Below, one piece after another: positions 19,782 to 38,047 of a DNA stretch of 64,000 nucleotides. Each line of letters starts with the position of its first letter. The first letter of the stretch is position 1. Below the pieces are notes generated by a model that saw only the letters and a program-made list of their open reading frames with translations, searched no databases and was not told the DNA's origin. Location: assembly GCA_027483535.1 (NCBI GenBank), contig JAIXUN010000002.1, positions 682,001 to 746,000 of the forward strand, in the 5' to 3' direction. Origin of the DNA: a bacterium (GTDB lineage: Bacteria > Armatimonadota > Fimbriimonadia > Fimbriimonadales > Fimbriimonadaceae). Made by a program: the position numbers and the translations under genes.

Positions 19782-21974
19782 CTAAATCTTCGTCCAGAAG
19801 ACGCCGCTTCCTTTCGTGCCCACCCAAAGCTTGTCGCCGCGAAGGTTCAAGCAGGGCGAATTCCGGTCTGGAAGGTCTTTGCCGATCTCGATCCATAAAC
19901 GCCCGCCCGTTTTGGAGATCGCCACCCCACCCGCTCGACTCATGGCGATGCTTTCCGAGTTGGTCGGATCGATCCGAACCTCCCGACAATCGCCGAAGTG
20001 AACCTTTCGGAATCCTCCGTTTGGCGCGCCGAGGTTCGTGCTGAGATAGACCCCCTCCGAAGACCCAATCGCGACCAGCGGAGCCTGGGGATTGCCAACC
20101 GAAACGCTGCGCGGCTTGCCATCGATCCCGGAAATCTCCGCCCACCGAAGGTCGCCTTTTGCATCGGGGGTTCCCAGAAACACTTTCCCTAACTTCGACG
20201 CAACGGCGACCATCTGACCGTTCGGAAGGAAGGCGATCTCGTTCGAGCCGGAAAAGATCTGGCTTTCAAAAAGCTCGGGCCCGGTTGGCAAGCCCTCGTT
20301 GATGGCGCGGAAGGTTTGACCTCCGTCGTTGCTGAGAAAGACCCCACCCTCGGCGGGTTTCGATTTCTCTTCTGGAATCCGGCCCGAGACGGCCACCGCA
20401 ACGACGCTGGGGTCGGTAGGGTGAACCGCCACCGAGTTGTAGTTCCTCTCTGGGCCGACGGGCAAACCGGAAGGAACCCTTTTGTTCCAACTCTTTCCCG
20501 CATCCGAGCTCACCCAAAGGCTCTCTGCTCGCCAAGACCCGGTTCCACCATCGCCCGTTGCGTAAACCGTTTTTGGTTGGGAGAACGAAACTGCCAGGGA
20601 CTTCATGTTCGAGTTCAGTTTCGGGCTTTGGAATCGAGCGCCCGCATTCTTAGAAAAGAGGTAGCCGTTGTCGGCCATTCCAACATGCACCCCTTCCTCG
20701 GTGGAGAGATCTGGCTGAATGGTGTGAACCACCGTCGCCTCTATGCCGTCCGACTTCAAAATCCAGTTCCCGCCCGCATTTGGGGTGAAGTAGAGCCCGT
20801 ACCAATCTGTGAAGTACCGCTTGAAATCGTCGAAGGGGTCGATGACGATACTCGCCGTCGCCTTGCCTCGATGCTTCCAGCCTGATCCAAGGAAGGCGGC
20901 AAACCAGGTCTCCCCTTCGAGCAACTCTCGCCAGGAGGGTTCAACAACCGGAACCCAAACCGAGCTTCCGTATGGCCGCACAAAGTGATCGCCCTGCGTG
21001 TTGCTTAAAACGAGCCCAGACTTTGAAGCGGCAAGGGCTTGATAAGTGTGGGGTCCGATGTACTCACGTTTGCCCTGGGGTGCCTCCGGCAGACCGGTCA
21101 TGTAGTCCGTCCAGGTGGTCCCGCCGTCTCGACTGGTTTTCACCCCCTCGTCGTTCCAGATTCCGTAAAGAACGTTTGGGCGGCGAGGGTCGAACACGAT
21201 CTCGGTAAGCCCGGGGCCGAATTTGGGCGTCCAAGAAAGCCCGCGATCTTCCGAAACAAACAGCCCTCCAACCGGATTCCAAGGTTTGTCCGAGTACGCA
21301 TGAAACTGGTCCTTCTCCGCGTATTGCCCCGCGACCGCGTACCACCTGCTTGGCTTATGCGGATCGACTTTGAGATCGGAAGGAAGTCGCCCCGTCAAAG
21401 AGCCCAGTTGGTTAAAAGAGGCTCCGTTGTTCTCGCTGAGCCAGATCCCCTCGAGGTGGCAAAACGCAACGATCCGATCCGGGTTTTCTGGATCGCGTTG
21501 AATCAAACGTCCCGCCCAACGCAGATGGTCGTTGGCGAACGTGGGAACCAGCCCAGTCTGGTTCCAGGTGCGACCACCGTCTTGGCTGCGATAGAGCCCG
21601 CCTCCTTTGATCCATCGATCTCCCACCAAGATCACGAGGTCATTTGGGTTGCGAGGATCCACGCTGACTCCGCGGACCCCACAAGTACCAATGGAAGGCA
21701 ATCCTGCGTGCAACATCCGCCAGCGATCACCGCCGTCATCCGTCCGATAAACGCCCCCAACATCGACCGACGCGTACAAGATTCCCGGCGTCGAAGTGGG
21801 GAAGATATCTTGGATGAAACCCCCTCCGCCAAGGATGGAGCTCTTCCATCGACCGTACTCCGCCCTCGGAGCAGCCGTTTTTGAAGGGGAAATTTGGGCG
21901 CTGAACTGCGCTGAAGGGGCCGCTCCAAGCAAATTTAGGCTCAAAAGGATGCTCAGCAATTCAGAACTCACCAT
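19782..21974 (-). CDS. Secreted BNR/VPS10-type beta-propeller protein
   Basis: This protein of about 730 aa has a signal peptide (MVSSELLSILLSLNLLGAAPSAQFSAQ). The ATG at 21974 is used instead of the track's TTG one codon earlier. It consists of repeated blades with the Asp-box pattern S-x-D-x-G-x-T-W: TDDGGDRWRML, SQDGGRTWNQ, SEDRGLSWTPK, SRDGGTTWTDY, SSDAGKSWNKR, SNDGGQTFRAI. Interspersed 'DPRNPNDLVILVGD' and 'DPENPDRIVAF' strands are typical of sortilin/VPS10-like and GH74 xyloglucanase-like propellers. GH74 enzymes have catalytic Asp residues that I cannot assign securely, so a glycosidase role is possible but unproven. It is divergent from another propeller gene at 22143. Confidence 0.8.
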   Translation of the reverse strand: MVSSELLSILLSLNLLGAAPSAQFSAQISPSKTAAPRAEYGRWKSSILGGGGFIQDIFPTSTPGILYASVDVGGVYRTDDGGDRWRMLHAGLPSIGTCGVRGVSVDPRNPNDLVILVGDRWIKGGGLYRSQDGGRTWNQTGLVPTFANDHLRWAGRLIQRDPENPDRIVAFCHLEGIWLSENNGASFNQLGSLTGRLPSDLKVDPHKPSRWYAVAGQYAEKDQFHAYSDKPWNPVGGLFVSEDRGLSWTPKFGPGLTEIVFDPRRPNVLYGIWNDEGVKTSRDGGTTWTDYMTGLPEAPQGKREYIGPHTYQALAASKSGLVLSNTQGDHFVRPYGSSVWVPVVEPSWRELLEGETWFAAFLGSGWKHRGKATASIVIDPFDDFKRYFTDWYGLYFTPNAGGNWILKSDGIEATVVHTIQPDLSTEEGVHVGMADNGYLFSKNAGARFQSPKLNSNMKSLAVSFSQPKTVYATGDGGTGSWRAESLWVSSDAGKSWNKRVPSGLPVGPERNYNSVAVHPTDPSVVAVAVSGRIPEEKSKPAEGGVFLSNDGGQTFRAINEGLPTGPELFESQIFSGSNEIAFLPNGQMVAVASKLGKVFLGTPDAKGDLRWAEISGIDGKPRSVSVGNPQAPLVAIGSSEGVYLSTNLGAPNGGFRKVHFGDCREVRIDPTNSESIAMSRAGGVAISKTGGRLWIEIGKDLPDRNSPCLNLRGDKLWVGTKGSGVFWTKI

Positions 21975-22083
21975 CAACTATGGCAACAAGACGCGGGAAC
22001 GGCGTTGAAGCCACGCTCATTTTCTGATTTCGCAAATTCTGTTAACAAACCGTTAGCATCAAATCTTTAACTTCGGTTTGGAA

Positions 22084-22142: not shown

Positions 22143-25034
22143 ATGAATTCTAACTTTAATCCTTTTATGAGGTCCGGTAAGGACCACCTTCGACGCCAAG
22201 GTTCACGATTCGCACGCCGAATTGCTCTCCTGACCCTCGTTCTGTCTGTTGGCAGCGCGGTGGTTGGATTCAAGGGCGAAGAACCGAAGTCGGAATCCAA
22301 AGCCTCGTCCGCGCCTATCCAATCTCCGTCTTTCCGATCGGTGAAGGAATTGGATGCCTTCATTCAGCAAGTCAAAGCCGAACGACGAAAGTGGGGCAAA
22401 GACGATAGCAAAGGCACCGCCGGCTACCTAGAAGCTCTGCGAGAAAGGCTCTTCGTTCGATCATTCCCGAATGACCGACCCGATGAGGACGCGTACTTCG
22501 AGGCGCTTCAGCACATGTCTCAGATGCCCAAGGCCACCGCGTTCGAAAGGACGATTCTGGGTGGTCAGAACTCCTCTACCGGACTCAAGATCGACCCGAT
22601 CACCGGAATTCCGGTGCGAGCCGGAAACGTAGGCAACACGCCTGGAACGTGGGACTTCTTCGGACCCCAAGGACTCGGCATCCCCTATCGGATTTACTAC
22701 GGACCACCCGACGCCGCTCTGAACGGGCGAATTTCGGGTCTAGCCTACGACCCTTCCAACCCGCGAACCCTCTTCTTGGGTGCCCCTGCGGGCGGCGTGT
22801 GGAAGTCCACCGATGCAGGTGTGACTTGGAATCCGCTTGGCAACGGTTTCACGGCTCCGTATATCTCTCGCGTTGCGGTGAGCCCGGCTAACTCCAACCT
22901 TGTGATTGCAGGCATGGGTGACCCGGACGGTGGCCAAGGCAGCGGCAATGGCGTGCTCCGATCCACCGATGGCGGCCTCACTTGGTCGAACGTTGTTCTC
23001 AATGGTGGTAGCTCCATGCGCGTCTCCGAGGTCATGTTCGACCCCGACGACGCGAGCATTGTGATCGTGGTTGCCGATAGCGGCGGCGGACTTTACCGAT
23101 CGGTTGACGGCGGCGCTTCGTTCACGCGACTCACGGTCGGTGGTTCCAACAACCGCCAATTCACCGAGATGTCGATCGGTATCGCAAGCGGCACCGGCGT
23201 GCGACGCTACTACGTTTCGGATCGATCCGGCGGGCTCTTCTTCTCTGAAGATAAGGGTCAGACTTGGGCGGCTTTGAACGGACCTCCAGGATGGGCGGGT
23301 CGAACCTTCATTGGCGCTTCGCGGGTCGATCCAAATAAGCTGTTCACCATCTCGAACAGTTCTCAGCGCGTTCATGTCGGAACCATTTCGGGTGGCACCG
23401 CTACCTGGACCGACATCACCTCGAACCTGCCAAGCGGATACAACTGGTCGCAATCTTGGTACGACATGCACCTGAACGTTGCCAAGCACAAGCGCAACGG
23501 CGTGGATACCGACTTTGTTTACGTGGGTCTCATCACGCTGGCTTGTTGGAACGGAAGCACCTGGACCGACGTGGGTCGAACGTACACCAACTCGGCACTC
23601 ACCCACAACGACGCTCACGTGATGACCGTCAATCCGGCGAACGAGACCGAGATGCTCATCGGTAACGATGGAGGCGTTTGGCCGCTCAAGTTCAACGAAA
23701 CGAACCAAACGTGGACCTTCCAAAACCGATCCAGCAACACGCTTGGAATTACCATGTTCTACTCGGCGGCGTTCCACCCTTGGTCGACGGTTCGACTGAT
23801 GGGCGGTACTCAAGACAACGCCTCGCCCGTCGCGATTGGCGACCTGAAGAACTGGGCGAACCGAACCGGTGGAGACGGAATGGGATGTGCTTGGAGCCCA
23901 AGCAACCCCCAAATAGCCTTTGGATCGGCGCAGTTCAACGGTCTTTACGGCACCACCAACGGCTGGGTGAGCCAGTTTGGCTTTGGTCCCGATTGGGGAG
24001 CGGATCCGACCCCGTTCGTCACGAAAATGGCGATCGAGCCTCAGGCATCGGCCGCCCTTTACGTGGGAACAAACCACCTGTGGCGATACAACACCACGAC
24101 GGGCGGAACCTGGGACGCTCGATTGGGCAACACCAACCTGTGTCCGAACGGCGGAGCGATCTATTCGATCGCGGTTGCCCCGACCGACAACAAGGTTCTC
24201 TATGTCGGAACGGAGCAGGGCCAACTCTGGACCTCGGTGGATCGAGGAGCCACCTGGCGACAGCTCGACACTCTGCTCACGCCGTCGTTCACTCGACGCA
24301 CGATCACTCACATCCGCGTTCACCCGACGAACAAGAGGCAAATCTGGTTCACGGTTGGTGGAACGGGAACGCCTCACCTCTACCGTGTTGCGGATACCAC
24401 GGCTCCGAACCCAACGCTTGAGAACGTAAGCGGATCGGGCGGCACCGGATTGCCAAACATCTTCACTGCTTGGATGGCGATCGACGATCAGCAGCCGAAC
24501 GCGCGCTGGTGGGTCGCAACCGACATTGGTGTGTTTGCAACCACTAACGGCGGTGCCACCTGGGCCAACGCCACCAACGCGCTGGGGATGCCGGTGTGTG
24601 AGGTGAGTCGCTTGGAATGGGTCCCCGGCACGCAACTGCTCATGGCGTCGACCTACGGTCGAGGAATGTGGCGGCTTGCAGTGAAGGGTGGCGGTGTCAC
24701 AACCGGAACTCCTAGCCTTCGATGGAACCACGCTCCAAGACTTGCCGCGGGAACGGTCACCGTGCGAAGCGCAGCCCAAAACAACGGAACCGCGCTTCTG
24801 GACGATCTTCGCATCAGCGATGTGACTCTGAGAATCGGGAACAACACCTACCGGGCAAACACTCTTTGGCCGATCGCCGCGGGCTCGATCCTTACGGGTC
24901 AGGCTACTAGCCGACTCTTCAACATCTCGGTCCCCGGCGGTTCGCCCCGCACCGGAACCTACCGAATCGAGGGCTCGTACCTGCACGCAGGCAAGCGAGT
25001 GGATATCGTCGAGTCGGCGACCATTAGCTGGTAA
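22143..25034 (+). CDS. Secreted BNR/VPS10-type propeller protein, 963 aa
   Basis: The N-terminus has a basic stretch followed by a hydrophobic helix (ARRIALLTLVLSVGSAVVGF), giving an exported protein with a long n-region. Residues ~60-170 are charged and helical. Two propellers then follow with Asp-box blades: STDAGVTWNPLG, STDGGLTWSNV, SVDGGASFTRL, SEDKGQTWAAL, SVDRGATWRQL, TNGGATWANAT. These alternate with strands like DPSNPRTLFLGAPAGGVWKS. The last ~110 residues (SLRWNHAPRLAAGTVTVRSAAQNNGTALL...GTYRIEGSYLHAGKRVDIVESATISW) form a beta-sandwich tail. This architecture is common in large secreted proteins of the group. The 767-codon ORF on the opposite strand is a shadow. A strong terminator follows. 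Confidence 0.82.
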   Translation: MNSNFNPFMRSGKDHLRRQGSRFARRIALLTLVLSVGSAVVGFKGEEPKSESKASSAPIQSPSFRSVKELDAFIQQVKAERRKWGKDDSKGTAGYLEALRERLFVRSFPNDRPDEDAYFEALQHMSQMPKATAFERTILGGQNSSTGLKIDPITGIPVRAGNVGNTPGTWDFFGPQGLGIPYRIYYGPPDAALNGRISGLAYDPSNPRTLFLGAPAGGVWKSTDAGVTWNPLGNGFTAPYISRVAVSPANSNLVIAGMGDPDGGQGSGNGVLRSTDGGLTWSNVVLNGGSSMRVSEVMFDPDDASIVIVVADSGGGLYRSVDGGASFTRLTVGGSNNRQFTEMSIGIASGTGVRRYYVSDRSGGLFFSEDKGQTWAALNGPPGWAGRTFIGASRVDPNKLFTISNSSQRVHVGTISGGTATWTDITSNLPSGYNWSQSWYDMHLNVAKHKRNGVDTDFVYVGLITLACWNGSTWTDVGRTYTNSALTHNDAHVMTVNPANETEMLIGNDGGVWPLKFNETNQTWTFQNRSSNTLGITMFYSAAFHPWSTVRLMGGTQDNASPVAIGDLKNWANRTGGDGMGCAWSPSNPQIAFGSAQFNGLYGTTNGWVSQFGFGPDWGADPTPFVTKMAIEPQASAALYVGTNHLWRYNTTTGGTWDARLGNTNLCPNGGAIYSIAVAPTDNKVLYVGTEQGQLWTSVDRGATWRQLDTLLTPSFTRRTITHIRVHPTNKRQIWFTVGGTGTPHLYRVADTTAPNPTLENVSGSGGTGLPNIFTAWMAIDDQQPNARWWVATDIGVFATTNGGATWANATNALGMPVCEVSRLEWVPGTQLLMASTYGRGMWRLAVKGGGVTTGTPSLRWNHAPRLAAGTVTVRSAAQNNGTALLDDLRISDVTLRIGNNTYRANTLWPIAAGSILTGQATSRLFNISVPGGSPRTGTYRIEGSYLHAGKRVDIVESATISW

Positions 25035-28800: not shown

Positions 28801-31395
28801 GTCACCCTGCCTTATCGCTCGAACCTGGGCAATCCGATCAAGGTGTCGTTTGCCGAAATTGGGATCGCCGATGTTGTGAACGGTCCGTTCGAGTTTCGCC
28901 TCCGAGAAGGTGCACTGGCAGGACTCGCATCTAACGAGGGCATTGCCGTCCCGCTCTTCCGAATCTCCGCTCCGAAGCTCGATTTCGACTATCGTCGAGA
29001 GGCAAACAACCAAACTCGTTGGGAACTGCGAGTTCCCAACGCGAAGGTGATCGGCGGACTCCCGGGCTTGGCAACCAAAGATCCCGACCCTCTTGAGTTC
29101 GATGTCAATGCGTTGCGGATCGATGATGATGGTTTGACCTCTTTCAGCGCGACCCGAACCTTCTCGGCCCCGCGACGGGTCGCCCTGGTGGACCCATTCG
29201 ATTTCGCATTCGCAGTAAAGAGTGCAACCGTTGAGGTGAGGAACAACAAACTCGTCTCCGGCACTCTGCTGGCCGATATCGAATTCCCCGACTCGGTGAA
29301 GTCACCAACCGGAGGCAGGGCGTCGCTCAATGACGTATCCATCACCCTTGGACAAGGGGGCGTCTTTGTCGAGGCTCAAAAGCCGCTCGACGTTCGATGG
29401 CGCGGATTTGCGCTTCAGGCGGAGCGCTTTACCCTCGACCTTTCGGCAGATCGAAGTCCGGGTTCCATGGCTCCCTCTTGGAAGGGCGTCAGCGTTCCGA
29501 CCGGCAAACTGATTCTGCCGGAGTCGCTCGGAGACGATGCTCCCAGTCGAACCGTAACCGTTTCTAACTTTAGGCTGGAATCCGCGGGAATCAGTGGCTC
29601 AGTGACCTTCGGGGCAAACGGGACCGCGGGTCCCAAAGAGATCGCCGGGTTCAAGGCGAGCAACGTCACGGGCGAGATCGCCTTCCGACAGAATGCCATC
29701 ACCAAAGGTGGACTCTCGGGAGAGCTGGAAATTCCAAGCGATACCGCCGGGCAAGCCCCGTGGAAGTTCGGCGCCGCTGCCAGTATCGACTCCAACGGTC
29801 TCGTCGAGGTTGGTGTCAAGAACACGACTTTCCCTCTGGAGGGTCTCGGTCTCAATCTTCAAGTCGAATCGGGCACGCTCAGCTTTGGAGTTGGGGTGCC
29901 AAAGGTGATTCTCTCGGGCAAACTGGCCTTTGCCAACCTTCCGCAAGCCGTCGCTTCGTTAAACGGGAAAGCGATCGGGGTGAAAGGGATCGGTTTTGAT
30001 GCCAACGGAAAATTCTATGCCCCTACCGGGGGCGGACTCGACTTAGGCGAGGGAGCTCAGCTTGATCTTGGACCTGTGATGGTCGACGCCCGGTCGGTGG
30101 CTCTCCGAGGGAACGCCCAGGGCCGACTCGCCGCAGTTGCCATTTCCGGCGGCGTCTCCATTCAGGGAGATCTGCCCGTTTCGGGTGGCGTCACGTTCGA
30201 TGGAATCACCATCGAGCGAGCCTCGGGCACCTCACCGGTTCCAAACGTCACAATCGGCGGCATTGGCCTGGAGGCTAGGATGGCCGGGGTCGGCACGATC
30301 CGAGGAAAGATCAGTCGCCAAAACGTCACCGGTTTCACAAATGCGTTTCAAGGCAATGTCGACCTCAACCTAGATGCTTTTCCGGGCAACATTGGAGTAA
30401 CTCTGTTGCTTGCCGATGATGTTTGGTTTGTTGGAGGCCGAGTTTCCGGTCTTAACATTACAACCTCACCCGCGCTGACCGTCTATGGCTTTAGTGGCGG
30501 ATTTGGATCCGGCATCAAGCCCAAACCTAGCCAGGGGCGCATTGAAGGGCTGGACCAGTTGGAAAGGTCCAAGGGTTCTTTCTTTGCTCAGGCGGGATTG
30601 CTTATTGGCGACCCCGCGCAAGGCACTCTCTGGTGGGGAGAAGTGAACCTGGGAGTAACGCTCCCGCAGTTCATTCTAGACATCGCGGGGCAAGCAACGT
30701 TTGTCAATCTCCCCGGAGATCAACCCAGCTTCAATTCTCGAAGCTGGTGGGAGAACCGATCCCGAGTCGCATGGGTATTCATGCGAATAGACGCTGAGAA
30801 GAAGCAATTCGACCTGGGCGGTCGTTTGAGGTTCTTCTTCCCCAGCAAGAGCGTCTCGATGTTTGAAGCAGGCGGCGAATTTGCAATGCGCCTGTCACCG
30901 AACGAAAAGTTTGTTCGCTTGGGTTGGGAACCTGCCGGACAAGAAAAGGTCTTCCTCAAGCTCAATACAGGACTCGGCGATAGCATTGGAACATTCGCCG
31001 CGCAAGTGGGCTTGAACATTGAGTTCCAAGAAACGTTCGTGTTTCAGCTCGATCTCAATGCCACGCTGAAGATGTTCAGCGGAGCGGTCGTCGTCTCGGC
31101 AGGTGGAACCTTAAACGTTTACGAATGGGGACCAGAAAAGGAACTAGGCGTTAACGGGTCGATCTTCATCGAAGGGATGATCGACTTCGGTCTGTTCGAG
31201 GCTGCTGCCGGAGGACGACTCTCTATGAGTTGGAACGAGCAAAGAGGAGTTCTTGTCCCGGCCGGGATGAGCATTCCTGTGACAACCGCTCCTGGCGGAC
31301 TACGCGTTCGGGGAACGGTCTACGGGCGAATCGGTCGGCTATCTGGAAGCAAGAGCATTACGGTGTGGATTATCGATCCCAAGAGGGACAACTGA
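25885..31395 (+). CDS. Giant secreted protein: lipase-like alpha/beta hydrolase plus long beta-rich region (1836 aa)
   Basis: A signal peptide (MKKISSRSLLAIGAGMLLLQHACFAF) is followed by a beta domain (~residues 40-160). An alpha/beta hydrolase comes next (~170-670) with an oxyanion strand NSLLVYVHGISRNN and the nucleophile elbow KIVFVGHSFGGIVI (GxSxG). Candidate acid and base residues are in YDNDGLVGWDSS and WDHHDSIDF. A lipase or esterase acting outside the cell is therefore likely. The remaining ~1150 residues are repetitive beta strands rich in G/V/A (KLAFANLPQAVASLNGKAIGVKG, LDLGEGAQLDLGPVMVDARSV, FVFQLDLNATLKMFSGAVVVSAGG), probably a stalk, helix or barrel-like structure that I cannot assign. 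The stop TGA overlaps the ATG of the FnIII-like gene, so the two are coupled. Confidence 0.8.
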   Translation: MKKISSRSLLAIGAGMLLLQHACFAFSAPSRLVTWASLVPSKAQGQKELTLGVPATLQLPERGEVAYVVRLKEGQYPLKMTVKGPRGSDSTLLFDLSLRTATGQRYKQIEYVNEVGESYKSEKVITLTEDFEGLLVFTQDRGDRAQIEFTLGSVTDAPNPPDDSNKPPKEDPFDRSKAQNSLLVYVHGISRNNQQAASDNEGIGTAQHPRYYWGWDLLAGSIGQEGSSTLDLLTTFKGGSPKASKTTRGSWSNYENYTPNPNESCPILLPQGTQIGQERPWLGAMVSFRDGSLALMPQVGAAIDQIYDSYFQTFGKLPADKQPKIVFVGHSFGGIVIRTILTNPTEGDFRGNKLTEVQREKATYIGKRVHFAASLSTPHLGSPLPLFSQHLEEAARAAFVIPGVANEISSAAGWNSETLNTVATEYRSTALNLIAGRRESLEDIIRMPNYNSGLLDPSKMRRPDGSQVLFYTMAGMSPGFVLYDTPKHITTAGIVWQATPQVSFGLQDLFGAGRFPKAAAALTVFNGALAVGGYGASPGKPWGAATVPAGDKTTKPDFGSNRFKVSGPEWEKASLSEQALIGAKQVRDSVGFVLRSMSYNSVYKQTPDGEYDNDGLVGWDSSNAIGLSGPFWKRVYGPDWGQVFPFDWDHHDSIDFNPGTGSFIYEYLVEDKLPSSYPSSLIAVEVDSVTSSCPDIDSVPSTNTEPDYRLEVSLSGDVKTFAGPDDTRTLTGPIRFESVQKGVLVPITIKLYDRDPISEDALSIGKEIGRDAIHLVYNRRTKRVLFVPSQIGTDPVIGMADDVITFAGHPTAKLPATISFKITEKAGSANVAQASSLKDATIRLFEKNGIIIALSNVNYSTGDPKEGDVLAGSGALSLTYPNPLKDYKNSQAAGLPDSLTAEIGRANFTGLVARKDGEIWRASGFGGILSDPKKVEDFAGSGAALELNKGAQMSLFKNSSGELQVNMKGGGSVTLPYRSNLGNPIKVSFAEIGIADVVNGPFEFRLREGALAGLASNEGIAVPLFRISAPKLDFDYRREANNQTRWELRVPNAKVIGGLPGLATKDPDPLEFDVNALRIDDDGLTSFSATRTFSAPRRVALVDPFDFAFAVKSATVEVRNNKLVSGTLLADIEFPDSVKSPTGGRASLNDVSITLGQGGVFVEAQKPLDVRWRGFALQAERFTLDLSADRSPGSMAPSWKGVSVPTGKLILPESLGDDAPSRTVTVSNFRLESAGISGSVTFGANGTAGPKEIAGFKASNVTGEIAFRQNAITKGGLSGELEIPSDTAGQAPWKFGAAASIDSNGLVEVGVKNTTFPLEGLGLNLQVESGTLSFGVGVPKVILSGKLAFANLPQAVASLNGKAIGVKGIGFDANGKFYAPTGGGLDLGEGAQLDLGPVMVDARSVALRGNAQGRLAAVAISGGVSIQGDLPVSGGVTFDGITIERASGTSPVPNVTIGGIGLEARMAGVGTIRGKISRQNVTGFTNAFQGNVDLNLDAFPGNIGVTLLLADDVWFVGGRVSGLNITTSPALTVYGFSGGFGSGIKPKPSQGRIEGLDQLERSKGSFFAQAGLLIGDPAQGTLWWGEVNLGVTLPQFILDIAGQATFVNLPGDQPSFNSRSWWENRSRVAWVFMRIDAEKKQFDLGGRLRFFFPSKSVSMFEAGGEFAMRLSPNEKFVRLGWEPAGQEKVFLKLNTGLGDSIGTFAAQVGLNIEFQETFVFQLDLNATLKMFSGAVVVSAGGTLNVYEWGPEKELGVNGSIFIEGMIDFGLFEAAAGGRLSMSWNEQRGVLVPAGMSIPVTTAPGGLRVRGTVYGRIGRLSGSKSITVWIIDPKRDN

Positions 31396-34160
31396 TGAAT
31401 ATTGGATGGACGAATAGGAACATGAAGCTCCCCGTACTGCTTTTGGTCGCCCTTGCGGGCGTGAACGGCTTAGTGGGGAGCACATGGGGACAAGGGAAGC
31501 CTTCCAATGCTCCTGAGCTTCGCGTCCAAGGAGCGGTGGTGACAACGGGATCTACCCGTGAAGCCCGATTGATCTTGACTCCGGTAGGAAAGTGGATTCC
31601 AACCCAAGGCTATCGCGTCTATCGACAAGTTGGCTCCGCGCCTGCAGTCAAGATTTGGCCGACCGGAAACACCTACAACTATCGCACTCTTGTGACCACG
31701 CAGTTTGGAAACAGAGACGAGTATCGAAGCATCGTTAAGCGTCTAAACGATGCCGCTGAGCAGCCCAATTTGGTCACCGACTATTCGTTTGATCTCAAGC
31801 GTGGAGCCTCGAGCGCGGATGCCTTCAATGCCTTCCGTACAACTCTAAACGCGAATAAAAAGAAGGCAGCGTTTGTGAAGGGTGATCTGCGCGTGTTCGC
31901 ATCAAATCCCGCCATTGCGTCTCGCCTTGCCCAACTCCGAGGGGTAGGCAAAGCCGATGCGCGATTCGGTAAGAACAGCACGCTGGAAGATATCCTCGAC
32001 GCTCGCCGAGACATCATGAGCGCCTCTTTGGTCGACTCGGCATTTGGTCGTGCGATGGGATTGCGGGTCACCGACCCCAACTTGCCCACAACAGGCTCTG
32101 TGACCTATCGAGTGCACCGCGTGGAAGAGGGTGTCGAATCTGCCGCCATCGCGACCGTAACCCTCAACCCGGCCACGCCTAATGCCGCGCCGAGAATCAG
32201 CGGGCTTTCCGGAGTCCAAATCTCATCGGGAAGGGTCGGCCTGCGCTGGGATCGACCTTCCATCGTCGAGGAATCGGCTCAAGGAAACCTGATCACTTAC
32301 CGGATACTCAAAAACGGCCAACCGCTTTCCAAACGACCCGTGATCATCGCCGATATCGAAGCCCCGGGAGATGAGCTGCTAGAGCCACTCTTCTTTTACA
32401 TCGATGAAGGCGCATCTTTAGACCCTAAGCAGGAGAGGTATCAGATTGTTCCGATCAACGCCTTCGGTCAGGAGGGAACACCGGTTTCGCTCAATGTTGA
32501 CGTGGACGATCTGCGAATTCCAGAGCCACCGTCGAACCTAAAAGCCTCGCCGATTAACCGTGCCTACCACTGGAACGCTTCGGCAAAACCCGACGCGAAA
32601 GTGAGTGTCGTTTTCGAGTTAAATGTCGACAACATCAACAGCATTGAGAAGTGGAACGTTCAGCGACAGGAGGTAACGGGAAATCCAAACACTCCGTGGG
32701 TGGATGTTCCACCTCAACAAGGGGAAGGCCCGTTCGGATCGCTTGCGCCGTTTATCAACCTCTCCACAGCAGACAGTGCCCGGTCGTACCTTGGATTCCT
32801 AATTGGCCCCGAACCTGCTCGCTTGATGTCCGATGCTGAGGTGAACAACGCCGCCGAGGGATTGTTCAAACGCGGCGGCGTTCTTTCTATCCACGATTCC
32901 ACAGCGATTCCGGACAAAACTTATCGTTACCGAGTCTCGACGACGTCCCGGGCTGGACTGCAGGGAGATCATGCCGTCTCAAACGACGTCACCGTCCCTA
33001 ATCTCACTCCGCCGGGCCTTCCCGCTATAACGGAAGCGACTTTTAGTCTGCCGCCAAAGACTCAGGCAGTTCAGGGTCAGGTGTTTAGAAAAGAAACCTT
33101 TGGAACGCTCAACTCAGACGTAAATCAGTTCAATCGACTCCTGGTTGTTAGCAACCTCACGCCGAGGGAGGTGGGGGGCATTGTGAAGCTCAAATGGACA
33201 AAGGAAGCTGTTCAAAGCAACATTTCTTATGCTATTTATCGCCGGAGCTCTTTTGGCGAGCGAGCTTGGACCCTTCTCGCTACCGTCATCGACAAGGACA
33301 GCTTTGAAGACAAAGTACCTCCGACGGTGAGAGGCACGTACGTGTATCGAGTTATTGCGACCAATCGCTGGGGAATCGCGGCCACCGGAGGTCAAAAGTT
33401 TCTTCTCGTCCCTGCTTCTTCTAAGCCGTCGGAGCCGGGTGATTTTGCAGTTCGATCTAACGAAAACGGAACCATAACGGTCGAAATCTCTAAACCCACC
33501 CTTTTAGAAGAGGTCACCCGAGTAAAGATTTATCGCAAGTCAACGCCTATCTTTGACTTTCATTCTACGGTGAAGCCCTTCGCCACTATTCTTCGAGCCA
33601 ATTTAAATCTTAACCAAGGGAGTAACTCGGTTCAAGGCATCTCGACCGCCGGCACACTGCAAGGGTTAGACGGGGCAAATGCCGTTGGTCGCCAACTCAA
33701 TCCGTATGCGGACGAAGGCTATGAACTGATTGGCGAAATCACCGGGGATGCGCTGAAGAATCCGACGGCCTCCTTCGTAGATCCCAAACCTCCCGTGAAT
33801 CGGTACTGCTGGTATCGAGCGGTGGCCGTAAATGCCTCCGATCTGGAGAGCATTGCCACCACGCCACTTTCGGCTACGGCGGTCATTGTTTCAGCGTCGC
33901 CCGTTACGGGTCTCACCGCTACCGCCACCGCACAAGGGGTTGAGCTGAAGTGGGGTGCTCTTTCCGGGGCAACTGGGGGCCTCTTGATCGAGCGAGCGCC
34001 GGTGGGGTCACAGGAATGGGTAGAGGTCGCTAGCGGAGTCACTGGAGTGTCCTACGTGGATCGAACGGCTAGGGCTCGACGCGCGTACACGTATCGGGTC
34101 TTCGTTCTCGATACGGCAGGGAATAGGTCTACGCCGACATTAGTGTCGATGCCCGGGTAG
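31395..34160 (+). CDS. Secreted fibronectin type III-like protein coupled to the giant hydrolase
   Basis: I use the ATG at 31395, which overlaps the TGA of the preceding gene (TGATG). The track's start at 31230 runs inside that gene. The 921-aa product has a signal peptide (MKLPVLLLVALAGVNGLVGSTWGQ, preceded by MNIGWTNRN). Several FnIII-like domains follow, recognisable from strands such as GRVGLRWDRPSIVE...ITYRILKNGQPLS, YRYRVSTTSRAGLQGDHA, GGIVKLKWTKEAVQSNISYAIYRRSSFGERAW, GTYVYRVIATNRWGIA, GLTATATAQGVELKWGAL and RAYTYRVFVLDTAGNRST. These are binding or spacing modules. The gene order suggests that it works with the hydrolase outside the cell. Its 3' end overlaps a convergent gene by 21 bases. 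Confidence 0.82.
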   Translation: MNIGWTNRNMKLPVLLLVALAGVNGLVGSTWGQGKPSNAPELRVQGAVVTTGSTREARLILTPVGKWIPTQGYRVYRQVGSAPAVKIWPTGNTYNYRTLVTTQFGNRDEYRSIVKRLNDAAEQPNLVTDYSFDLKRGASSADAFNAFRTTLNANKKKAAFVKGDLRVFASNPAIASRLAQLRGVGKADARFGKNSTLEDILDARRDIMSASLVDSAFGRAMGLRVTDPNLPTTGSVTYRVHRVEEGVESAAIATVTLNPATPNAAPRISGLSGVQISSGRVGLRWDRPSIVEESAQGNLITYRILKNGQPLSKRPVIIADIEAPGDELLEPLFFYIDEGASLDPKQERYQIVPINAFGQEGTPVSLNVDVDDLRIPEPPSNLKASPINRAYHWNASAKPDAKVSVVFELNVDNINSIEKWNVQRQEVTGNPNTPWVDVPPQQGEGPFGSLAPFINLSTADSARSYLGFLIGPEPARLMSDAEVNNAAEGLFKRGGVLSIHDSTAIPDKTYRYRVSTTSRAGLQGDHAVSNDVTVPNLTPPGLPAITEATFSLPPKTQAVQGQVFRKETFGTLNSDVNQFNRLLVVSNLTPREVGGIVKLKWTKEAVQSNISYAIYRRSSFGERAWTLLATVIDKDSFEDKVPPTVRGTYVYRVIATNRWGIAATGGQKFLLVPASSKPSEPGDFAVRSNENGTITVEISKPTLLEEVTRVKIYRKSTPIFDFHSTVKPFATILRANLNLNQGSNSVQGISTAGTLQGLDGANAVGRQLNPYADEGYELIGEITGDALKNPTASFVDPKPPVNRYCWYRAVAVNASDLESIATTPLSATAVIVSASPVTGLTATATAQGVELKWGALSGATGGLLIERAPVGSQEWVEVASGVTGVSYVDRTARARRAYTYRVFVLDTAGNRSTPTLVSMPG

Positions 34161-34904
34161 TTCGAATTGATCTGCCGATGGTGATACTTGCGAATCCAGA
34201 TATGCGTTGATCTGATTGGCAAGTGCTTTGAGTTCGGATTTTTTCATGCTAACCCCAAGGGTAACTCCATAGTAAGTATCAGTTGTGTCTATCTGTAGAT
34301 AGACCGGGCCGATTGCCTCTAAGCGATATCTAGCGGGATCGTGATGTGGGCTATCTTGCGGATCGTAAGGAGAGTGTTCCACCCTCGCTCGGGTCCAACT
34401 GGGAATCTGATAAACCCTAGGGCGACCGCGCAGATAATGGATTCTGAGGGTTCTTCCTCGCAAGTCAAATCCACGTACGACAACTGGATAGAGATTGAAA
34501 TGCTTCAACCAGAGTGCTATCCCCAAGGAGGATAAGCATAGAAGGATCGGACGAACCTTGGTCCATAAGAATTTTGATGTATCAACTTCAACAAGCTTGA
34601 GATTTGAGTTTGGCGAGTAAACGTAGTAGTAGCGATGTGTTTGATGCCAGGCAAGCGCTATCTGGCCTTCCGAGATGGTTAAGCCGTATGGTGTAAATGC
34701 CACCACTACGAACAGCACTAGCATCAGCACGGAGAGTCCGATTAGGATGGTGATAAGTGTATGCGGCTTCAGTCGCGGAGTGGGCGGGTTGGGAAAAGTG
34801 TATTCGAAAACGTCTGATTGCGATTCATTGGTGAGCTCGCTCGTCTCCGCTTTCAGCGGGTTTCCTCGAAGGGAAGCAGTCAGGTCGTCGCCGTTATCTT
34901 TCAT
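34140..34904 (-). CDS. Membrane protein D of a four-member tandem paralog family (short form)
   Basis: This 254-aa protein has two transmembrane helices (LITILIGLSVLMLVLFVVVAF; VRPILLCLSSLGIALWL). The C-terminal half resembles its upstream neighbours: VRGFDLRGRTLRIHYLRGRPRVYQIPSWTRARVE, and an ending VSMKKSELKALANQINAYLDSQ. It lacks the N-terminal helical domain of the other three (the 'QKLALVKSLR...LDQIESDLR' region), having instead ~50 polar residues. Its ATG overlaps the TGA of member C (ATGA), so the two are coupled. No known family is recognised. The C-terminal domain after the second helix could be a PH-like cytoplasmic fold. Confidence 0.65.
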   Translation of the reverse strand: MKDNGDDLTASLRGNPLKAETSELTNESQSDVFEYTFPNPPTPRLKPHTLITILIGLSVLMLVLFVVVAFTPYGLTISEGQIALAWHQTHRYYYVYSPNSNLKLVEVDTSKFLWTKVRPILLCLSSLGIALWLKHFNLYPVVVRGFDLRGRTLRIHYLRGRPRVYQIPSWTRARVEHSPYDPQDSPHHDPARYRLEAIGPVYLQIDTTDTYYGVTLGVSMKKSELKALANQINAYLDSQVSPSADQFELPGHRH

Positions 34905-35914
34905 CTCTGTTCTTGAAGAGTTTCTCTTTCCGACTTAGTCTGGTGCTCAAGGTAACGGTTGATTAATCTAAGATTATCGTCCAGTTCTACCTTCGAAGAC
35001 CCATAACCAATCCTGACGTAACGATCACCATCAACTGGTAGCTCAATCGAATCTGGCTCGTAGTTGACGCGGAACCCTCGCTTATAGTTCGTGACCTCCA
35101 ATCGCGCTTTGGCGTTCCGCCTCAGACGATACTTCCTGTGGAACTGAAGCCCATCAAAACGGGTGTGGATAGTCAGATTGCGCCCCTCGAGTTCAATGGA
35201 TTCTTCTCCGGATTGCTTAACGGATATCCATAAGAAAATCGTACCAAGAATAATAAATCCAAACGGCATTACCAGAAAGGGGATCTTTTCTCGCCATAAA
35301 TCGCTCTCAGAGACTTTCTGAGCGATCGTGTACGTAGTGTTCCCGATTTCTGGCAATCTGTCGGAAGCATAGTAGAGAATCGTCTGACCGGATCCTTTTG
35401 GCGTTATCGTGAAAAAAGGTTTGTTGAATATATCAAAGGCAACTGGAATAAGGACGAGCCCAACGACTACGAACAGAGCGCTGAATATTGCCACATATGC
35501 GCTGTCAGTGGCACCTGGAGAAGTGTTAAGGTGAAGAACATCTGGAATTGATCCATCGTCCTCAATTCCTCTATTGCCTATGTGGGAATCCGCAACTTTG
35601 GACGACACCGTCGATCTCGGAATACTCCCGATTAGGGCGGATCTCAGGTCCGATTCGATCTGATCAAGGCGCGAAAGTTTCTCCTGCAACTCGTTTGTGA
35701 GGGATTCTGGGACGGTTTTTTTGTTCGCCTTAGATCGGGCATTAAGGCTGTTTCCGGCGGTCCGTAAACTCTTCACCAGAGCCAGCTTCTGACGAATGGT
35801 GACCCTTCCAAGGCCTGGATCAAAAGGCTCCAGGCTCTCAAAATCTTGGAGCCAAGCCTGGTACTCCGCTTCAATATCGGACGGAGGTTGCTCTTTAGGA
35901 TTAGATCCGCTCAT
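34901..35914 (-). CDS. Membrane protein C of the tandem paralog family
   Basis: This 337-aa protein has three parts. An N-terminal helical domain (EAEYQAWLQDFESLEPFDPGLGRVTIRQKLALVKSLRTAGNSLNARSK ... LDQIESDLRSALIGS) comes first. A two-helix membrane core follows (SAYVAIFSALFVVVGLVLIPVAF; FLVMPFGFIILGTIFLWISV) flanking an exposed loop with TPKGSGQTILYYASDRLPEIG. The C-terminal domain is ESIELEGRNLTIHTRFDGLQFHRKYRLRRNAKARLEV ... IELPVDGDRYVRIGYGSSKVELDDNLRLINRYLEHQ. All three parts align by eye with member B. The family function is unknown. It is coupled to member D and shares with member B a conserved block just upstream of the start codon. Confidence 0.65.
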   Translation of the reverse strand: MSGSNPKEQPPSDIEAEYQAWLQDFESLEPFDPGLGRVTIRQKLALVKSLRTAGNSLNARSKANKKTVPESLTNELQEKLSRLDQIESDLRSALIGSIPRSTVSSKVADSHIGNRGIEDDGSIPDVLHLNTSPGATDSAYVAIFSALFVVVGLVLIPVAFDIFNKPFFTITPKGSGQTILYYASDRLPEIGNTTYTIAQKVSESDLWREKIPFLVMPFGFIILGTIFLWISVKQSGEESIELEGRNLTIHTRFDGLQFHRKYRLRRNAKARLEVTNYKRGFRVNYEPDSIELPVDGDRYVRIGYGSSKVELDDNLRLINRYLEHQTKSERETLQEQR

Positions 35915-35991
35915 TGCGTACCTTATTGTAGAGCGAAACCAACCCTGCCCGGCTCTCGTTCGTGAAGAACCGTGATCGATTCCGAACCAGC

Positions 35992-36957
35992 CTAGCCGTG
36001 AACGTCTAGGTAGTGATTGATCTTTGTAAGGAACTCTTGGAGTTCCTCGTCTGAAGCGCCGTACGCGATTTTTACGGTTGTGAATCCTCGCACGGGTATT
36101 TCGATCGAATCCAGTCTGGCTGTACTGTACTCTTCTACTGTTGGATTAGCAATTCCAAGTTTCGCTCTTGCACCTGCGGGGAGAAGATAGGCTTGTTCCG
36201 TCGTCTGTATGCCGAACGTGTGCTGAATGGACAGGTCTCTCCCACGAAGTTCAATCGCCTCCGCGCTAGCAAGGCGAGAATACAAGCGCAGAACTATCCC
36301 GCCGATAATAAGAAGAACAAGGGGAAGTAGACCGAACTCTAGCTTCTTTTGTGACAGCTCCTGTTCTGAAATTTTCGTCGCATCGGTGTATTGAGGGAGC
36401 CCTATCGCAGGGAGCGTGTCTGAGGAGTAGTAAAGAAGCGTTTGATTTGGCCCTAGTTGTTTGGTGGTGTAAGGGGTGTTGAAGCCCAGAATCATGAGCA
36501 TGAGGGTGAGCAATCCACCGAGCAAGAGTAAAGACCCAAAGATCACACCTAAAAGACCATCGGTGGTTCCCTTAGATGTTATCAGCCTTAAAACATCTGG
36601 AATGGGTTCTTCGCTGGTTTTCTTTGGAGATATTGCGGTTGTTAACGTCCGTGGGTCTCGATGGTTACTGCCCACGAGCAAAGATCGCAGGTCTGATTCA
36701 ATCCCATCGAGCTTTGGAAACTGCTCCAAAAACTGCAGAGACCAAGAGTCAGTTGGCGGCTCCTTCTGAGACTTCAAGCGGGGCATGAGACCGTTCCCAA
36801 CCGATCTCAGATCCTTCACCAGCGCCAGCTTTTGGCGGACCCTCACTCGTTCGAGATCGGGGTCCAGGTGCTCAAGACTCTGAAACTCTTCCAGCCAAGC
36901 CTGCAACTCCGATTCCAAGCTGAGATTCGATTCCCCTGGAGAGTGAGGCCCGCCCAT
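35992..36957 (-). CDS. Membrane protein B of the tandem paralog family
   Basis: This 321-aa protein has the same organisation as member C. The helical head is ESELQAWLEEFQSLEHLDPDLERVRVRQKLALVKDLRSVGNGLMPRLK with LDGIESDLRSLLVGS. A connector IPDVLRLITSKGTTD is followed by two transmembrane helices enclosing a loop GPNQTLLYYSSDTLPAIG. The tail is EAIELRGRDLSIQHTFGIQTTEQAYLLPAGARAKLGI ... IEIPVRGFTTVKIAYGASDEELQEFLTKINHYLDVHG. Similarity to C is continuous, indicating a fairly recent duplication. The translation start ATG at 36957 is supported by the conserved upstream block TACAATAAAGTACGTC. Confidence 0.65.
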   Translation of the reverse strand: MGGPHSPGESNLSLESELQAWLEEFQSLEHLDPDLERVRVRQKLALVKDLRSVGNGLMPRLKSQKEPPTDSWSLQFLEQFPKLDGIESDLRSLLVGSNHRDPRTLTTAISPKKTSEEPIPDVLRLITSKGTTDGLLGVIFGSLLLLGGLLTLMLMILGFNTPYTTKQLGPNQTLLYYSSDTLPAIGLPQYTDATKISEQELSQKKLEFGLLPLVLLIIGGIVLRLYSRLASAEAIELRGRDLSIQHTFGIQTTEQAYLLPAGARAKLGIANPTVEEYSTARLDSIEIPVRGFTTVKIAYGASDEELQEFLTKINHYLDVHG

Positions 36958-37032
36958 GACGTACTTTATTGTAGAAGCAATTGTCCAAGAGTGGACACAT
37001 GGTTCCTACCTTAATGAACAAACGGGAACGGA

Positions 37033-37935
37033 TCAGCCGTTGACGTCTAAGTAATGGTTGATCTCTTCCACCATTCGACCGCGAAACTCCAGAGAGGCGC
37101 CTGTTCCCATGGAGACCTCTTTGCCGGTCTCATCGGTGAGGATGATCGCCATGGTCGGCGTCTGCTTGTTGCCGTTGGTCCAGCCCATGTTGGGTGTGCC
37201 CACTCTGGCCTTGGTGCGCGGGCTCAGTTCGTAGACTTTCTCCCGTACCCAGCCGCCCAATACTCGCTTGATCTTCAGTGTCCGACCGTTGAGTTCAATC
37301 GACTCGGTTGCAAGGGCATTCACCGCCGTCGCGAGCATGCCGATGCCCACTGCATAGAAGATCGAATAGAAGAGCAACATTGCCAGAGCGCCCCAGCCGA
37401 ATGCTTTAAACATTCCGCCGATCATGAGGACGCTGTGAAAAACGGTGAACGCCGTCCAACCAAGCCCGAAAATGCCCGCCCCCGCCGCCGCGGCGGGGTT
37501 GCTCGGGGAAGTGACCAGTTCTAGAACGGGTGGAGGTTCGGGGAGGGTCGAAACGCCCAGCTCCTGCCGAGCTTCTCGTTCGGCAAGCTTTTCCTGAATC
37601 TCGGTCAGATCCACCTGTCCACGCAGATCACCCGGCGCTAGCCTCCCCAGCCGGCGACGAAGGTCCGATTCAATCGAGTCGAGCTGACCGTACGCTTTCT
37701 GCATGGTCTCGGCGAGCCTCTGATCCTCGCTGGATTGAAGGAAACTGAGTCGAGAGGTGAGGTCTCGGCCCGAGGTGCGCAGCTTTTCGATCGCTACCAA
37801 CTGAGCGTCGACTTCTTCGCGGCTTGGAGCTTCGTCTAGCAGCACCAAAGGCGCAAACTGCGCGAGCCACTCGTGCGCCTGGGCCCGTACGTAACCATCG
37901 GCCTCAAACTCCTGCGAAAATTGCATTGCTCCCAT
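37033..37935 (-). CDS. Membrane protein A of the tandem paralog family
   Basis: I choose the ATG at 37935 (MGAMQFSQEFEADG), which has GAGGGG five bases upstream, over the track's GTG at 37956. The ~300-aa protein has the head HEWLAQFAPLVLLDEAPSREEVDAQLVAIEKLRTSGRDLTSRL with YGQLDSIESDLRRRLG. A Glu/Arg-rich linker of ~35 residues is unique to this member (EIQEKLAEREARQEL). PPVLELVTSPSNPA leads into two transmembrane helices with almost no loop between them. The tail is ESIELNGRTLKIKRVLGGWVREKVYELSPRTKARVG ... VEEINHYLDVNG. It is the most divergent of the three full-length members. A divergent promoter region (37936-38047) separates it from the next plus-strand gene. Confidence 0.65.
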   Translation of the reverse strand: MGAMQFSQEFEADGYVRAQAHEWLAQFAPLVLLDEAPSREEVDAQLVAIEKLRTSGRDLTSRLSFLQSSEDQRLAETMQKAYGQLDSIESDLRRRLGRLAPGDLRGQVDLTEIQEKLAEREARQELGVSTLPEPPPVLELVTSPSNPAAAAGAGIFGLGWTAFTVFHSVLMIGGMFKAFGWGALAMLLFYSIFYAVGIGMLATAVNALATESIELNGRTLKIKRVLGGWVREKVYELSPRTKARVGTPNMGWTNGNKQTPTMAIILTDETGKEVSMGTGASLEFRGRMVEEINHYLDVNG

Positions 37936-38047
37936 CCCAACCCCTCGGCGATCCACTCGCCAATTGGGTTATCGGTTGATTAGACGATTCACAACCCTGT
38001 AAAGTCCGCGAGGCATTTGCATGCCGAACTCATGAGATTAAACTTGG

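Follow-up and report, generated by a model that had tools for sequence, protein, structure and literature searches.

Four tandem paralogous genes for an unnamed variant of predicted membrane-anchored bacterial PH-like proteins in Armatimonadota

The window, a 64,000-nucleotide stretch of an Armatimonadota genome, carries four consecutive genes, designated A to D, on the minus strand. Their coordinates and those of two short leaders are as follows, with the basis or the sequence of each.

37033..37935, minus strand: gene A, the first of the four (ORF list, orthologues, predicted structure)
35992..36957, minus strand: gene B, same plan as A (ORF list, profile scores, predicted structure)
34901..35914, minus strand: gene C, sister of B (ORF list, profile scores, tree)
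34140..34904, minus strand: gene D, a remote headless paralogue (ORF list, profile scores)
36958..36975, minus strand: leader abutting the start of B, CTACAATAAAGTACG
35915..35932, minus strand: leader abutting the start of C and common to B, CTACAATAAGGTACG

The frames of A to D fill positions 34140-37956 and are read in the order A-B-C-D, with 307 codons for A (counted from the GTG at 37956), 321 for B, 337 for C and 254 for D. The frame of A is open from this GTG; the ATG at 37935, preceded by GAGGGG, is the likelier start and is also the one implied by the coordinates in the preliminary description. The gaps are 75 nt between A and B and 77 nt between B and C, and the stop codon of C overlaps the start codon of D by 4 nt (ATGA). 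Because the four genes share a strand, short gaps and this overlap, and are flanked by a divergent gene upstream and a convergent gene downstream, they are likely transcribed as a single operon. Separate promoters for B and C were considered and rejected, as no candidate stood above chance; no full sigma-70-type promoter was found at the B leader, and a search for structured RNA gave none. The long convergent gene on the plus strand (31230-34160) shares 21 nt with the end of D (window 34140-34160); it looks fibronectin-like by eye, with no Pfam match at E 0.001.

The preliminary description, made from the letters of the window, had proposed four tandem paralogues. BLAST and profile scores far above those of shuffled sequences bore this out, with D as a remote member. 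In pairwise BLAST, B and C were 40% identical over 325 residues (E 3e-69), A and B 27% (E 8e-13), A and C 24% (E 2e-13), and A and D 23% over 163 residues (E 2e-5). A profile built only from A and its orthologues in other genomes gave B 68.9 bits and C 78.4 bits, against 2.7 and 5.1 bits for the best of 300 shuffles of each. With a profile from which D alone was left out, D scored 15.4 bits (best shuffle, 0.6), in the C-terminal domain only; this score needs B, C and the other duplicates in the profile, and the profile of A orthologues alone gave D 7.5 bits. By these sequence comparisons the relatedness is real for A, B and C and moderate for D. The shared segments that had been pointed out were also recovered. 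A, B and C all have the head ending LDxIESDLR; the connector PDVLxLxTS reads PPVLELVTS in A, PDVLRLITS in B and PDVLHLNTS in C; the loop LLYYxSDxLPxIG was found in B and C only, A having a tight turn without such a loop, a point absent from the preliminary description; and D, described as membrane and C-terminal parts alone, has no detectable head.

Structures of A and B were predicted with AlphaFold, with mean pLDDT values of 90 and 85, respectively. The pTM was only 0.55, so that the placement of the head relative to the membrane part is unreliable in these models. Both models consist of a helical head, a strand, a membrane hairpin, six further strands and a C-terminal helix. In the model of A (numbered from the GTG), the helical head spans residues 9-106, a linker helix 117-132, the first strand 145-150, the membrane hairpin 154-215 and the C-terminal helix 289-306. 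Three long helices form the head of A; B has a shorter first helix and a break in the third. B has a loop of about 40 residues between its membrane helices, with a predicted beta hairpin at 163-195, and C has the same inter-helix loop. D, by sequence, has a membrane hairpin with a loop of about 45 residues followed by the C-terminal PH-like domain, its second membrane helix falling below the hydropathy threshold used. The two membrane helices proposed earlier thus fit the predicted structures of A and B.

The earlier guess that the C-terminal domain might be PH-like agrees with the order of elements in both models, where seven strands precede a C-terminal helix and the hairpin separates the first strand from the second. 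PH domains were among the best Foldseek matches of the B model in the PDB (2dn6, probability 0.98; 1v61, 0.85; 1xx0, 0.84; evectin-2, 0.72), at E 0.16 or worse, next to a match to Lam6 (0.63), and the A model gave mixed matches including the PH domain 2dn6 (probability 0.75). No Foldseek match of the models reached E 0.001, and a viral structure library returned nothing significant. The best matches of A were accessory subunits of Tetrahymena respiratory complex IV, 8b6h chain DO (E 0.0018, probability 0.96) and 7w5z chain B (E 0.031, probability 0.95), for which the TM-scores with the A model were low (0.16-0.25). The paper on 8b6h reports a PH-like accessory subunit (PMC10060162), and the chains matched here may or may not be that subunit; what A has in common with them is probably at most a fold. 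Because the strand and helix order, the repeated PH matches and the link to DUF2244 described below point the same way, we regard the C-terminal domain as PH-like by prediction, interrupted by the hairpin after strand 1. We hold the family plan and the paralogy of A to D with high confidence.

The preliminary description did not recognise the family. It was right in that no curated family model matched A to D above its cut-off and the family carries no name, but relatives of these proteins do match DUF2244 (PF10003) below threshold, several of them colinearly. Such matches were obtained for 11 of 23 family members (best E 0.0011); one is colinear over positions 12-134 of 138, and others are nearly so, covering the hairpin and the C-terminal domain. 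The DUF2244 gathering cut-off of 27 bits was not reached by any member, A to D themselves having no match and A-type proteins at most 19.1 bits. In one relative, G093, in an arrangement resembling that of D here, the A gene overlaps by ATGA a headless companion (L117:9904-10452) that belongs to the A-D family (E 6e-9) and scores 25.6 bits with DUF2244, 1.4 below the cut-off. When A orthologues were aligned by hhalign with a set of four DUF2244-like proteins from other Armatimonadota, the score was 34.0, compared with up to 22.2 for column shuffles and up to 25.3 for shuffles within 20-column blocks (n = 100), which roughly preserve hydropathy. On these alignments the membrane and C-terminal module is best called DUF2244-like and not a DUF2244 member. 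DUF2244 has been put forward as a bacterial PH domain with a membrane anchor, in a group with PHb domains anchored by two helices, for which a role as transporters or pores was suggested (Xu et al. 2010, PMC2817789). As in that family, two membrane helices directly precede the C-terminal beta domain in the A and B models, and in D by sequence. Unlike DUF2244, A, B and C have in addition a helical head about 100 residues long and a linker, and the A and B models show a strand before the hairpin, whereas Xu et al. take these families to lack strand 1 (PMC2817789). PF08000 (DUF1696) also has a PH-like fold in bacteria; it differs in being soluble and ring-forming, without hairpin or head, and has no sequence match to A-D. 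We conclude that A to D are an unnamed variant of membrane-anchored bacterial PH-like proteins. Three other identities were rejected: a holin (Phage_holin_3_6 matches were sub-threshold, and PHROGs gave nothing for A-D), a defence gene (PADLOC was empty except for a short helical-head match at E 0.024), and a known helical head (matches to ApoE, spectrin and EspB reflect weak helical-bundle likeness).

The family has so far been found in Armatimonadota only, and its nearest named relatives belong to this phylum, many being labelled Fimbriimonadaceae or Fimbriimonas. Orthologues of A, 40-49% identical, occur in many related genomes. By profile search a family gene is present in 32 of 85 genomes of the GTDB family, as a single copy in 28 of them, and in 40 of 291 genomes of the phylum. 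The local amplification suspected earlier was confirmed by this survey, as four copies occur only here and the other genomes of the taxonomic family have none to two. Two genomes, G020 and G024, carry two copies in tandem, and a third, G085, has two partial matches on separate contigs that are perhaps one split gene. No other genome yielded B or C, and a search of 40 relatives gave no convincing match for D. A scan of the contigs of relatives returned 22 loci with the A alignment as query and none with B.

The hairpin is the most conserved part of the A type. Among 17 first copies the mean identity was 54% in the hairpin, 34% in the head and 32% in the PH-like part, and ten hairpin residues (W F T H G G F Y F G) were kept in all 17. 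Such a set, which includes one His, one Thr, one Trp and one Tyr, could mark a cofactor-binding or enzyme site: in A the invariant W, H, Y and T would bind heme, quinone, metal or lipid, an activity that the duplicates would have lost. We consider this quite improbable, since there is a single invariant His, neither sequence nor fold resembles a known membrane enzyme, and motifs of this kind also serve helix packing. As a set the motif was lost in all six duplicates scored, namely B, C, D and those of G020 and G024, although single residues remain in some of them and the head is kept; in G024 both tandem copies are without it. The loop divergence proposed in the preliminary description is better described as a gain, the widespread A type having no loop and B, C and D one of about 40-45 residues. 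D may have lost its head, or may derive from a DUF2244-like protein that had none.

In the tree, B and C were sisters with support of 100/100 on a long stem (2.55 changes per column). The backbone was not resolved, so the tree does not establish an origin of B and C from the A of their own genome. B and C differ at 0.45, 0.36 and 0.67 of codon positions 1, 2 and 3, and at residues common to both 73% of fourfold sites differ, indicating saturation. Because the differences fall mostly at third codon positions, the proteins are under selection, and on this evidence B and C are old copies maintained at the protein level. A competing view is that A is a working membrane protein and that the other three genes are redundant copies drifting apart without a joint role, kept for a time or being lost. 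The long stem, the confinement of B and C to one genome and the loss of the hairpin motif speak for it, as does the third-position GC content, which is 0.50-0.54 in B, C and D compared with 0.69 in A and 0.58-0.71 in six other genes. The low values could also mean acquisition from elsewhere, all three frames are open at full length, B still folds in prediction, and the third-position excess despite saturated fourfold sites argues for copies that are old and kept. We judge decay of redundant copies to be unlikely, if not very much so.

The tandem pair of G024 (L053:8425-10109) is 67-96% identical in DNA over the first ~360 nt and 27-59% over the rest, and its heads were likely subject to recent gene conversion or a domain swap, to judge from this pattern. 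B and C, too, are more alike in the head (52%) than in any other large part, and they show no sharp mosaic boundary. A constant head combined with varying membrane parts would be in keeping with the variable partners or ligands suggested in the preliminary description. One form of that idea is an immunity or partner-binding array, in which constant heads join a common machine and the membrane parts, PH-like parts and outer loops diversify for ligands such as antimicrobial peptides or rival toxins. It would account for the G024 mosaic, which is expected of gene conversion or domain swapping, for the similarity of the B and C heads and for the second copy or headless companion in three other genomes; tandem recombining immunity paralogues are known in another system (PMC9484751). 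Neither a toxin nor a defence gene turned up in the neighbourhoods checked, PADLOC gave nothing of note, most carriers have a single copy and the B-C divergence is not mosaic, so we regard such an array as improbable. It is likewise improbable, in our estimate, that the proteins form an inner-membrane hetero-oligomer with constant cytoplasmic heads and exchangeable membrane and PH-like parts, whose outer loops, gained after duplication, would meet outside ligands and whose heads are exchanged by gene conversion elsewhere in the phylum. To our knowledge no counterpart of such a modular membrane system has been described.

The closest functional analogy is with YdbS/YdbT and DdE/DdF (bPH_2, PF03703; COG3402, COG3428), which are likewise encoded by adjacent genes and built of two transmembrane helices plus cytoplasmic PHb modules. 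YdbS has two transmembrane helices and one PHb2 domain, YdbT has six and three, and the two lie together; deletion of ddE or ddF, relatives of YdbS/YdbT, stops export of enterocin DD14 (PMC8657885). YdbS/YdbT belong to the sigma-W regulon of B. subtilis (PMC3498285). At our locus four modules of two membrane helices and a PH-like domain are encoded side by side in one likely operon, and YdbS and YdbT together also carry four, on two chains instead of four. A further difference is the head of A, B and C, as none is described in PMC8657885. PF03703 had no match in A-D at E up to 10 and none in the whole genome of the window.

By this analogy we tentatively favour the reading that A to D form an inner-membrane scaffold working like YdbS/YdbT, with B, C and D as extra subunits bearing outward loops. 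The hairpin would hold the PH-like domain against the inner membrane. The head and the PH-like domain would be cytoplasmic, both being typical assembly parts, and through them the proteins would self-assemble into an inner-membrane oligomer. In most genomes with the family this oligomer would be A alone. Here B, C and D would build it or vary it, and with their outer-face loops and lost hairpin motif these three may supply the outward-facing parts of the complex. Assembly into a mixed complex is conceivable, if doubtful. The service performed might be protection or upkeep of the envelope, after YdbS/YdbT, a role that the analogy only weakly suggests and that we think rather unlikely.

Membrane-anchored bacterial PH domains have barely been studied. 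The A-D family adds a new architecture to this group, with a predicted cytoplasmic head and an invariant hairpin motif, and its duplications amount to a natural experiment in which the head was retained and the hairpin motif lost each time. Should the complex exist, it would hint at the way in which membrane assemblies are put together from simple hairpin-PH modules.

Function could not be read from gene neighbours, as there was no shared neighbourhood except among close relatives. In G034 the A-family gene is followed immediately downstream by a TPR gene (L051:8022-8870), and so is the tandem pair of G020 (L052:10867-11736); this shared gene adjoins A in 2 of the 25 loci listed. It is a single-copy gene in 62 of 85 genomes, and in the genome of the window it is far from the locus (G000:C1:1642298). 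Among genomes at least 90% complete it occurs in 24 of 25 that carry A and in 31 of 45 others (p 0.013, without correction for kinship). The TPR protein was not adopted as a partner of A and was kept as a lead only, since this p value takes no account of kinship. Elsewhere in the window, two large proteins with Sortilin-Vps10/BNR beta-propeller matches are encoded side by side on opposite strands (19782-21977 and 22143-25034). At four loci in other Armatimonadota families (L109, L110, L111 and L112), 197-residue DUF2244-like proteins are encoded beside a coiled-coil protein resembling PspA/IM30 and another helical protein, and three of these loci also lie near a potassium-channel-like gene, the PspA and channel assignments having been made by eye.
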